A stretch of DNA of 64,000 nucleotides from Agelas oroides. Taxonomy: Eukaryota > Porifera > Demospongiae > Agelasida > Agelasidae. The stretch covers positions 5,731,415 to 5,795,414 of the forward strand of contig OX422205.1 of NCBI GenBank assembly GCA_949130485.1, written 5' to 3'. Numbering within the stretch: the stretch's first letter is position 1; each line of letters starts with the position of its first letter. The notes below the pieces were generated by a model. It was given only the letters and a program-made list of their open reading frames with translations, ran no database searches and was not told the origin of the DNA. Of the stretch, positions 1,159 through 64,000 are shown in pieces. The position numbers and the translations under genes are program-made.

Positions 1159-4100
1159 CTATACAGTGATCACAAAGTCTTCTCTCGTCAGAAACTCCCA
1201 GCACGGACCGCAGATGTACGTTGATTTTGAAGTAGCATTCCTGCTTGAATTGTTCAAGGGTCCTCGATGCTGCAGAGAATACGTGAAGAATAAAAATAAG
1301 GAAGTTCACTGCTTTTCAATGCAAAATTATGTACATGTATAATAGCCTTGTTCCCAGGCCACTCCCAGATTTTGTCTTGCACTCGATTTTCCTCTACGGC
1401 TGCGAGATAAACCTGGGAGTGACCTGGGAAGGAGGCTGCATGTATACTAGGCACCATATTTGATGTAAACTAACCTTTCTTATGCATCCAGAACACACTT
1501 GTCTGAAGGGGGGAGGGGGGGGAATAGAGTTACAGGTACTACTGTTGAGTAATATTACGACATTGTAGAGATGTGCCATGCAATGAACTGTAGCATTTTA
1601 TCACTGTAAGACAGAAAGCTAGAAGAGGTCCGACATCCCTGCTCACATGCAGAAGATACCAAATTTTGGAATTGGTAAGTAAGTGTGCTGGTAGTGATAG
1701 CCTTAGTTGTAGTGTACACCATTAGTATACATTCCTAAGCCAATCAAGTAGTGTTTTTTTCTGGTCTCCTGTTGACTTGGTTTAGGTACGTAGGGGCTAC
1801 TTTTTTTTTTTATAATAAATCTACCAGCAACTTTTCATCTCTTCAAGCTTTCTCCGACCAGCTCTTGAGACTGATGTTTTATGCACGTAGTAGGTATGTA
1901 TGTCGGACCTTGTCATAACCATGTTCAGCTTGCAGACTATGCTGGAGAAGACAGCTTGCAGACTAGGTTGGAGGAGACAGCCCCAGTGCTACAGTATTTA
2001 TCCCACTGCACTGCAGACACCATTCATTTTATCAGCATTCCTCGCATACCATGTAAAAGAGCTTACAAGAGTGAGGCAGAAAAACAAACAAGCCCCAAGG
2101 GTCACCTGCACAATGTTTGAGGAGGTCATACATAATTATGCATAGTGTTGTGACTGCAGCCATTCAACAGTGGCTCCAAGCTCTCGTTTGTCTCCCGGCA
2201 CACTTGAAAGGGATACATATGAATCTAGTATAGAAGTTTGCTGTAAACAGGTAGGTGAATCCCATGCACCCATACTGACAGTATCAGGGACCATGAATAC
2301 TCCAATATTCACAGTATGGCCTTGTGCGGTGGGTGGGTCAAAATTTATTCATGGCCCCCTCCGAAATACCACAGCTAAAAGCTGTCAACAGTGAATGAGG
2401 TTACATCTATCAAATGTTACAATTAATTTGGTTGATAGTGATAGTGGGAGAGGTGGATAGACATAAGAGGAGATTGAACATGGATGAGGAAAGTTAGGAT
2501 CTGGAATTTGGGTGGAAATCATCCTCATTTTTAACTCTTAAACAAAAAAGGAACTCTTTTAAGATCTGAAAAACCTTTTGCCACTACTAATCTTTCCCTC
2601 ACTTTGCCTAGTCTTGCAAGCCACACCCTAACTAACTTTGCCCTGATGATGATTACAGCATTTACACACGCAGTCAAAATTTTCCAATTTTGAGTTGGCA
2701 ACAGAGGGAATTCTTTCCATCTCTGTGGTTTAAATGATGTTTCAAGATGGAAACAAGGGTCCCGCTTTCCATTCACTGATAAACTCGCAGTTCACTCACA
2801 CACTAAGGGGCTCATCGAGTTACTGAAGCCAATGTACCCTTGCTCAAACACAGGGTTAATATGATACATACCTCTTGCAAATGTGGCAGACAGTGGAGCG
2901 AGTAAAAACAGAGAACTTTTTCTTCCGACAGGCAAAGCAAACCTGCAAAATGGTAGAGTATGAGCGTAAAACCATCCAGAATGGCCGGTGATTTATGCTA
3001 TACTTTAAGGAAGGAGGGGGTGAGAGAAAAGGAGTGAACGAAGGGGTCAAGACTGGCAGGGTTACTGTCTCACCTTCCCCTTCTCTAGCTGCTTGGAAAA
3101 TTTCTCGTCTTCTTGTTGAAGGCTGATGAGGTCTCCACTGGCAGATATGGTGCGTATGTGCACGACTTCTGAGAGGGACAACTTGGGTACCTGGTGCTCT
3201 GCACCACTGTCCCCTGCACTGCTGCACTCTGCAGAGTTCTCCTCTGTAAACACCTGTAATATTGTGACGGAGGGAGGGGGAAGGGGGAGGCGGGAAGGGG
3301 AATAAAGAATGGTATCCCTTTGTGTTGTACAAAGGGTAAAGTAGCTGATTGTATTGCTGTTGTTATGAGGAAAGAAGGCCGTGCAAATTGGAGCGGATTG
3401 CAGAACCATTCAGTGGAACTAACGTACTACACCGCTAACGTGAACGGGAAGACTGAAAAAGGACCTTGTGTGGCCATGACGCCGTACGGCGTCATTGGGC
3501 CGGAAAGGGTTAAGGAACACCATTGAATCGAGGACATCTCACTAATCAGGACGTTTGCATTTCTCATTGAGTATCCATATCAGAGAGTTTTCACTGTAGA
3601 TCTGAGGAAAGATTTCGGAATTATTCTATCCTTCTAAAATGTGTCAAGTAAAATATGACATTCAATTGAGAGCATGAGAAATGACAACTTGAGTGTGGCA
3701 TTCAAACAAACTGAGCATGGCATTACTTTCTTAAATCATGGTAGACATGGTGTGGATGTGGTTAAATGCTAGCCTTGTTCCCAGGCCTTCCCACCATCCG
3801 TCGGGGAGGGGGGAGGGGGGAGGGGGGAGGGGGGAGGGGGGAGGGGGGAGGGGGGAGGGGGGAGGGGGGAGGGGGGAGGGGAATAAAGAATACATGGTGT
3901 GGATGTGGTTAAATGTACCATCAACAAGTATCCAAAGCAAGTTTGTGCTCCAAACCCGACAGTATTCATTCCTTGTTGATGACTAACAGCATGAGTAACA
4001 CAAAACTAAACAGTGGCTATTTTGACTCAACAGTGAACCCTAAAGGGGGGTGTGGGCTGAGGCCCAAATATTCACGATCGGAGACCTACTGTCAGAGGTA

Positions 4101-62112: not shown

Positions 62113-64000
62113 ATGATGGCTCCCCTCGTTGGCTTCCTCTGCTTAGCAACCTTCCTTGGGTTCTCTTCAGGTAGACTCACAAGTCAAGATACTATTCACA
62201 GTCGTTGTTATTGTTTTTTTGTTGTTGTTGTTTTTTTCCATTGAGAATATACTAGGTAGCTAGCCACATAAATTTTTTTCGTGTTTGACCATACTCGACA
62301 CGTAGCTAATCCTACGTGATGCTCATCGTTTGCGCATCTGTATCGCTCAGCTTTGCATGCAACTGACTTCCAGATATAGATACCTGCATACGGCAAATTT
62401 CCAAGCTGCAACAGTGTACTGCGGATATACACAGTTGCGTGCGTAAGAAACAAAGCAGTAGGGAAAACGTTTCCAGTAGAATGCATATGCAAGTAGGTAT
62501 TTTGATGTTACTACCAGGATAAAGTAGATTTGTGCACACATAGATGGATTCCTTTCTTTGACTGATTCTTTCTCTGTTGGGTACACAGCCCAAGGAAATC
62601 GGCCCTCGGTTGGTGATTTTGACAACTGTAAGATGCTGCATGAGAGTCTACAGCTGGCCTGGACTGTTAACAGGACAGCAGAGACGGTTCGGTTCATGCT
62701 GTGTGGTTGTGCCCTCAGTGCAGTCACGTGAGTGTTTGTCTCAAAACCAGTTAGAATTATCTTCAACACCCAAAGGATATAAAAATTAAATTTAGGCCTA
62801 TTTCAGCATGTTATATATCAGGTACAGTTCACAAACTGTAAAACTCCTCATAACACTTCCATCTGCTTGCTATTATCTGGTTCAATAACTGTCCATCATC
62901 TCCCTCACAATTGCATGAAGCTTTATTAAGAAACACACTGCCACTTATGCTAAGAAAACTCATCATGAATGTCCATTGCAAAGAAAAGAAGTTGATAATT
63001 GAATAGTTCAATATACGCCTAAACAAACACTAAATCACATGTGCTGCATCTCCTGTGACTTTAACCCTTTTGAAGCCGGTACCACCATTAGAATGCTTAA
63101 TCACCACCCAAAAAAATAAAAATAAAATGAAAAAAACGAGAGTCCCAGAATTTTCCGTGGGTTTTGTCTCTCTTCCTAAGGGTTTACAATTTCTGTCTAC
63201 GTAGATGATGGACATGACAATTTTGATTGGTCAAACATAATCTATACCTGCAGCACTGCAAACCAGTACATGGGGTTTGGCCTGAGTGGGAGCACGTCCC
63301 AGACACTCATGCGTGGGGCAGACACCACCATCACCTGGGTGGACGATACGACAGGAGCACAGGCAGTAGACTACTTTCTCAGTGACTATGTACAGGTATA
63401 AATAGCCCCACCCACAAACATGAAACTGCACCCACCCAGATAAATAGCCCCACCCACCAACATGAGACCACACCCAGATAAATAGCCCCACCCACCAAAC
63501 TGAATGTCCCAAAATCCAACAAGGGGTACACATACTGCTTTCTGATGCGTGCTGCTGCTGTAAAAACAGCACAACGATTGCCCTGTGTTAAAACAACATG
63601 TGTATGTTTAGCAGCTAGCCTCATATCCAGGCCACTTGCAAAAAAAAAGAAAAACGGCCTGGTATCTACTGTTTGCGCACGTGTGACCATCCTCAGAAAA
63701 ACCTGGGGATCCGGTATAATCCACATACTTTTGAAAATGGTTTGCATAATCACTACGTATACGTCTGTTTCATTTCCGTTTGCAAGCGGCCTGGGTACGA
63801 GGCTAATTTAGCAGCATGTAGCACAGAGTGCACCAATAAAGTATCACTTGTAACTCCGTGTTGTTTTCTAGGACATTCAATTAGCATGCCAAATGTGAAG
63901 TCATAGTGCTTGCTCCAACCTTGATAAGCTAGTGCCAGGTATCTGGAAAACGAACACACTTGATTCCTAACCTTTGACCCCCTGCAGTGTCGAGGGGGGG
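62113..64000 (+). CDS. DOMON-domain secreted protein, 5' part only
   Basis: Exons seen: 62113-62170, 62589-62727, 63254-63395 and 63988 to the window end, all in phase. Exon 1 encodes a signal peptide (MMAPLVGFLCLATFLGFSS). A DOMON domain follows: LHESLQLAWTVNRTAETVRF, LCGCALS, QYMGFGLSGSTSQTLMRGAD, TTITWVDDTTGAQAVDYFLS, DYVQCRGG. DOMON domains bind haem or sugar and occur in extracellular redox proteins (DBH/MOXD1, ferric reductases, Skeletor/Knickkopf). The open frame upstream of 63254 has a stop, so the acceptor CTGCAG at 63248-63253 is preferred. What follows beyond 64000 is unknown, including whether DM13, reductase or monooxygenase domains are present. Confidence 0.8.
63617..63804. mobile_element. 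GCCTCGTTCCCAGG-family element, ~188 bp
   Basis: The ends TAGCCTCATATCCAGGCC and GGCCTGGGTACGAGGCTA, with inner TTGCAAA and TTTGCAAG words, enclose a longer interior. A 9-bp TTTAGCAGC occurs at both flanks, one base inside the expected right end. It lies in the third intron of the DOMON gene. Confidence 0.7.

Follow-up and report, generated by a model that had tools for sequence, protein, structure and literature searches.

The stretch analysed here comprises 64,000 nucleotides of the genome of the sponge Agelas oroides (contig OX422205.1, positions 5,731,415 to 5,795,414; hereafter the window) and carries, beside ordinary host exons, numerous copies of a short DNA element bounded by a 17-bp sequence, TAGCCTCGTTCCCAGGC, and its inverse. 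Six copies lie between exact 9-bp duplications, each of which proved exact at the positions given in the original prediction (features are given without strand): a 568-bp element at 12371-12938 (CATAACTGG), a 74-bp element with a diverged left end at 16568-16641 (AGTACTCAC), an 81-bp hairpin at 42486-42566 (CATCCTTAT), a 42-bp hairpin at 47216-47257 (AGAGGAGGT), a 56-bp hairpin at 48019-48074 (CATCATGCT) and a 144-bp element at 58171-58314 (GTGATTTTC). Several more had been reported to match at 8 of 9 positions; copies with such flanks are a 96-bp element at 1343-1438 (CATGTATAA/CATGTATAC), a second 56-bp hairpin at 13953-14008, an 88-bp element at 14033-14120 that is similar in its interior to the terminal arm of the 568-bp element, a 123-bp element at 22575-22697 and a 67-bp element at 46315-46381. 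The 123-bp element contains an inner end at 22623 and may represent two overlapping insertions, the 8 of 9 referring to its outer flanks, while the 67-bp element has the TAGTCTC variant of the end and its flank match is weak because the flanks are CA-rich.

The two remaining features are associated with 10-bp repeats. A 190-bp element at 63616-63805, with a left arm of the type found upstream of the helicase exon described below (GGCCTGGTATCTACTGTT), is flanked by a 10-bp duplication matching at 9 of 10 positions (GTTTAGCAGC/ATTTAGCAGC), and a tandem array at 53823-54064 has a 53-bp period made up of a 43-bp hairpin and a 10-bp flank repeat. Another tiny hairpin forms a tandem array at C7:896230-896664, with six tail-to-tail matches on a 49-bp grid.

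The genome-wide search with the 17-bp end that had been proposed returned 14,907 exact occurrences in 259.3 Mb (7340 + 7567), against none for the reversed control. The window itself contains 77 sites at up to 4 mismatches from the 17-mer and 35 at up to 2 mismatches (0.55 per kb). A 200-kb comparison sample, consisting of twenty segments of 10 kb placed at round coordinates along contigs C1-C3, contains 43 sites at up to 2 mismatches (0.215 per kb), which places the density of ends in the window at about 2.5 times that of the sample; the G+C content of the sampled sequence is 43%. L-numbered loci below are stretches of the genome read outside the window. A literature search with the end sequence returned no paper, and one for the smallest or shortest miniature inverted-repeat transposable element (MITE) or transposon returned no paper on such elements by title.

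Two signs of matched change in the ends were considered and dropped. The 77 ends of the window show 51 C/G, 8 T/A and 18 other combinations at one position pair inside the end (TAGCC..GGC versus TAGTC..GAC), and no claim is made from these counts, the independent lineages being too few. Matched CpG decay on both ends, which could point to hairpin repair, was uninformative in about ten copies viewed by eye. Among the ten long open frames of the window, six contain Pfam domains; the segments 18672-21061, 44821-45576, 48747-52134 and 61456-62142 are ordinary host exons by Pfam, with double-stranded RNA binding motifs and domains of a glucosamine-6-phosphate isomerase/6-phosphogluconolactonase, an RRM protein, a phenylalanyl-type tRNA synthetase and a ubiquitin-conjugating enzyme.

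Target duplications and empty sites

Flanking sequences were tabulated in the 264 kb formed by the window and the 200-kb sample, using a relaxed form of the end that gave 226 ends (reversed control 23) and 378 facing pairs. Most of these pairs are not elements, since non-neighbouring ends were included. The 9-bp flanks were identical at 11 of the 378 pairs and matched at 8 or more positions at 20, against a mean of 1.16 in shuffled flanks, so that the flanking 9-mers match far above chance. Flanks of 10 bp matched at 9 or more positions at 8 pairs (0.99 shuffled), and flanks of 8 bp matched at 7 or more positions at none (0.17 shuffled). The tandem array at 53823-54064 accounts for five of the eight 10-bp cases, and the rest are the 190-bp window element, a 49-bp copy at L049:4034-4082 and L034:7846-8386, the last of which is doubtful, a nested end having been used. 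Among the 20 9-bp cases, L042:5463-5564 and L045:7014-7669 are located in tandem repeats, and for these two a flank match alone is weaker evidence. A scan that made no use of the end motif, looking for 9-bp repeats adjoining inverted termini, recovered 16 pairs, 10 of which belong to this hairpin family.

Insertion can be read directly at two places. The loci L037 and L044 contain two copies of one larger repeat; in L037 a 41-bp element stands between two copies of the 9-mer GTCTGCAGT, whereas L044 has a single GTCTGCAGT and no element. The 656-bp element L045:7014-7669 lies inside a tandem repeat of about 170 bp, and the adjacent unit, which is free of the element, contains a single copy of the 9-mer that differs at one position. 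At both empty sites, the element and one 9-mer were gained by insertion. The original prediction of a pervasive family of short hairpins that duplicate 9 bp of the target is borne out, with the addition of a few duplications of 10 bp.

A helicase exon and a possible second gene

An open exon, MAGKSEDFDKPLKFALSRIGKGDFTLKAEQLDAIKCIYDGKDVFLWLPTEFGKS (MAGKSEDF..LPTEFGKS), follows the left end inside the 656-bp copy. Comparison with the PDB gave 29 sequences at E ≤ 1, all named helicases (best E 5.3e-4), mostly of the RecQ type (Q1, Q5, Bloom, RecQ), the remainder being MTR4 and YprA. All 150 scored candidates, out of 500, matched this exon; the genome total is at least 150, and these 150 matches are referred to as helicase places. 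The sequence upstream was probed at eleven of them, by nine 100-bp reads picked without prior view of the flanks and two 34-bp reads, and the family end was present in 11 of 11, 172-186 bp before the start codon, against a background rate of 0.011 per 100 bp per orientation. In all nine 100-bp probes it took the form TAGCCTC[GAC]TACCCAGGC, 172-185 bp before the start codon. The short copies consequently have their ends in common with larger, helicase-bearing transposons of the same genome.

A second gene may accompany the helicase. The domain DUF6589, possibly linked to Academ elements and putatively their transposase, gave 118 matches at 83 loci; a literature search found no paper mentioning it. 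A DUF6589 match lies within 7 kb and in convergent orientation at four of the 150 helicase places (C2:11.93 Mb, C3:17.55 Mb, C1:3.61 Mb and C21:4.56 Mb), where random placement, for which the sizes of five contigs were estimated, gave a mean of 0.22 and a maximum of 2 in 300 trials. Within 15 kb in any arrangement the count is 6 of 150, against 1.4 expected. Both 34-bp reads, which were taken where two of the four two-gene places were predicted to start, contained TAGCCTCGTACCCAGGCCGCTCGAAAAAT. Separately, three DUF6589 matches of equal score, in open frames of 1913 residues (C2:19766780, C17:3662260 and C18:6756821), perhaps belong to another recent mobile element.

Proposed origin and possible movement of the very small copies

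In the larger copies, the 17-mer is followed, within the terminal repeat, by variable sequence and an inverted inner box. The resulting inner dyad reads TACCCAGGCCAC..GTGGCCTGGTATCCACTG in L045, CCAGCCGGA..TCCGTCTGG in L035 and CCAGGCCTT..AAGGCCTGG (AGGCCTT..AAGGCCTGG) in the left terminal arm of the window copy at 12371-12938. Six larger copies were read at both arms, and 10 of these 12 arms contain the box (GYCTGG/CCAGRC); the exceptions are L034:5945-6262, on the right, and L041:453-1901, on the left. The L041 copy is 1449 bp long, has the family ends with flanks matching at 7 of 9 positions, and includes a short GCGCAATCTCGAGATTGCGC-like minisatellite arranged in inverted blocks. Because the inner GYCTGG box repeats part of the opposite element end, it offers a simple route to small copies, namely deletion between two short direct repeats, which would leave a single arm closed as a hairpin of about 40-60 bp, and the copies of 40-64 bp look like element ends closed up by such a central deletion. 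When short pairs were compared with the longer arms, 8 of 40 scored at least 4 above shuffles, the best being the 53-bp hairpins of L044 and L037 (23 versus 10-11 shuffled); the 49-bp copy of L049 is among the eight. In L045, copies of 46 and 56 bp have the same arms and different centres.

Small copies are numerous. Exact ends facing each other at a total length of 34-64 bp occur at 299 places genome-wide, against 95 with the opposite geometry; among 50 listed of the 299, the length is 40-64 bp. Among 50 listed of the 95 tail-to-tail pairs, 31 measure 57-59 bp (spacer 23-25 bp), and so narrow a peak suggests that a single kind of structure lies behind it. As to the order of events, the copies could have shrunk after landing or landed small. 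That the tiny hairpins themselves move as units of 40-60 bp, rather than being products of shrinkage after insertion, is a real though tentative alternative. It is favoured by the empty site of the 41-bp copy, by the 299 exact-end pairs and by the dispersal of individual sequences. The 42-bp window element is present at four places in all, the window included, at up to 3 mismatches; the three relatives are at C9:2032935, C12:2523469 and C22:4082796. Used as a query together with its flanks, the window site gave 8 further matches, none of which shared element and flanks together: seven consist of the element and no more than 9 adjoining bases to the left or right, and the eighth is confined to 46 bases of the right flank, the three relatives being absent from these matches. 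Likewise, a 53-bp hairpin occurs at 50 places genome-wide.

On the other side, the empty site is silent on the size of the element at landing, and among nine short copies with duplications that were compared, no two have the same centre. In addition, the alignment of the L044 53-bp hairpin with its diverged relatives in L037 and L026 continues into shared flanks, so that at this locus, the one read among the 50, the hairpin is part of a larger repeat. Self-amplification of the 53-bp hairpin from its 50 dispersed places was accordingly set aside, one place having been read and two relatives sharing its flanks. The larger repeat (L044:6884-7521 and L037:2237-2916) is partly palindromic and has internal hairpins of 53 and 55-57 bp.

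As single strands, six tiny copies fold far better than their shuffled counterparts (z -4.3 to -8.9; 0 of 200 shuffles as good). A speculative and rather unlikely extension is that the element's own helicase unwinds the palindromic ends, whereupon the copy extrudes as a hairpin and both ends meet at the base of the stem, which would make units of about 40-50 bp movable. If this were true, no double-stranded DNA loop between the ends would be needed for transposition, such units would be among the smallest conceivable transposons, and the inner box would be part of the extruded structure.

Proposed assignment to an AcademH-like lineage

Taken together, the copies are read here as MITEs, that is, non-autonomous derivatives, of an AcademH-like, helicase-bearing lineage of DNA transposons, to which we give a probability of roughly 0.7. 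The ends, the duplications, the two empty sites, the helicase linkage at the left end and the two-gene layout at four places are direct observations. The group would be defined by TAGYCTCRTNCCCAGRC-type ends and duplications of 9 or 10 bp. Its larger members would encode a RecQ-like helicase, joined at some places by a convergent gene for a DUF6589 protein, which would be the transposase. Proteins of the larger members would bind the ends of the copies in trans, excise them and insert them through a cut staggered by 9-10 bp, and the very short hairpins would arise by loss of the middle, leaving one terminal arm closed directly by the opposite end.

AcademH elements have duplications of 9 or 10 bp and encode a helicase in the part of PMC10045372 consulted, DEAD and Helicase_C are given as domains from AcademH, KolobokH or Helitron in an excerpt of PMC10799480, and the title of the account of AcademH DNA transposons (Kojima 2020) names animals and fungi. 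Both features recur here, in the 9- or 10-bp duplications and in the RecQ-like first exon, and since they fit AcademH the group is best read as AcademH-like rather than as a proven member. The inner end boxes and the swarms of 40-64 bp hairpins, by contrast, go unmentioned in those portions of the AcademH descriptions. Hairpin repeats in the mitochondrial DNA of freshwater sponges (PMC7800867), likened here by the partial description available, are also short palindromes but differ in being mitochondrial.

Several results weigh against this assignment. The Pfam DEAD match of the helicase fragment, which covers the first exon only, has an E value of 0.014 and falls under its cut-off. Convergent DUF6589 is found at only 4 of 150 helicase places, all in the group 51-59% identical to the query, and at these places the left end was read at two of four and the right end at none of four; at a further two helicase places, another DUF6589 locus is situated on the same strand at a distance of 12-13 kb, an arrangement that may be fortuitous. 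No transposase catalytic residues were seen, and the role of DUF6589 as a transposase is conjectural. The deletion route is likewise affected: with only 8 of 40 short pairs matching longer arms, a clear parent is lacking in the sequence sampled for most of the short copies (32 of 40 without a clear longer-arm match), the match of the empty-site 41-bp copy is marginal (11 versus 9), and in two larger copies the inner dyads or arms show folding that is only modestly better than in shuffles (z -2.7 and -2.0).

The copies had been filed with Mutator-like or Merlin-like elements on account of their 9-bp duplications; the duplications are confirmed, and the membership is not supported: 0 of 23 Merlin loci, read about 1.5 kb to each side, have a pair of family ends around the domain, and 0 of 150 helicase places have a match of either kind within 15 kb. 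Mutator-like elements (MULEs) usually make 9-bp duplications, their MITEs likewise include short hairpin-like copies, and the genome has 119 matches to PF10551. Nevertheless, not one of the 150 helicase places has any of the 119 within 15 kb, where 2.1 would be expected by chance, a test by proximity to helicase places only, and 10-bp duplications occur beside those of 9 bp. A MULE was therefore set aside as partner of the helicase-bearing members, and a MULE origin of the copies appears improbable.

Duplications of 8-9 bp are typical of Merlin, of which the genome has 23 PF12762 matches. In 3.1-3.4 kb around these loci (about 1.5 kb on each side) no pair of family ends encloses the domain; 8 of the 23 have any end at up to 3 mismatches, in no consistent place. 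Moreover, the 378 facing pairs include 9-bp and 10-bp duplications but none of 8 bp, and the 150 helicase places are free of PF12762 matches to a distance of 15 kb, which makes Merlin MITEs a very improbable reading. Kolobok elements duplicate TTAA at their target. The duplications here are 9-10 bp and varied in sequence, and KolobokH was rejected on this ground, although KolobokH and a RecQ-bearing Kolobok of a red alga resemble the present group in having a RecQ helicase beside the transposase, as stated in the part of PMC9587614 consulted. Finally, spread of the palindromes without a transposase, by replication slippage or as structural RNA, would suit the strong folding of the six tiny copies and the one copy that became a tandem array, but is highly unlikely given the 9- or 10-bp duplications, the empty sites and a window in which Rfam has no match at gathering scores.

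The AcademH-like assignment thus ties a very abundant short repeat of a sponge genome to a helicase-carrying group of transposons. It also raises a testable question, that of the minimum size at which a DNA transposon still moves, for which the 41-bp empty site and the 299 exact-end pairs of up to 64 bp already provide the material to compare alleles between sponges.

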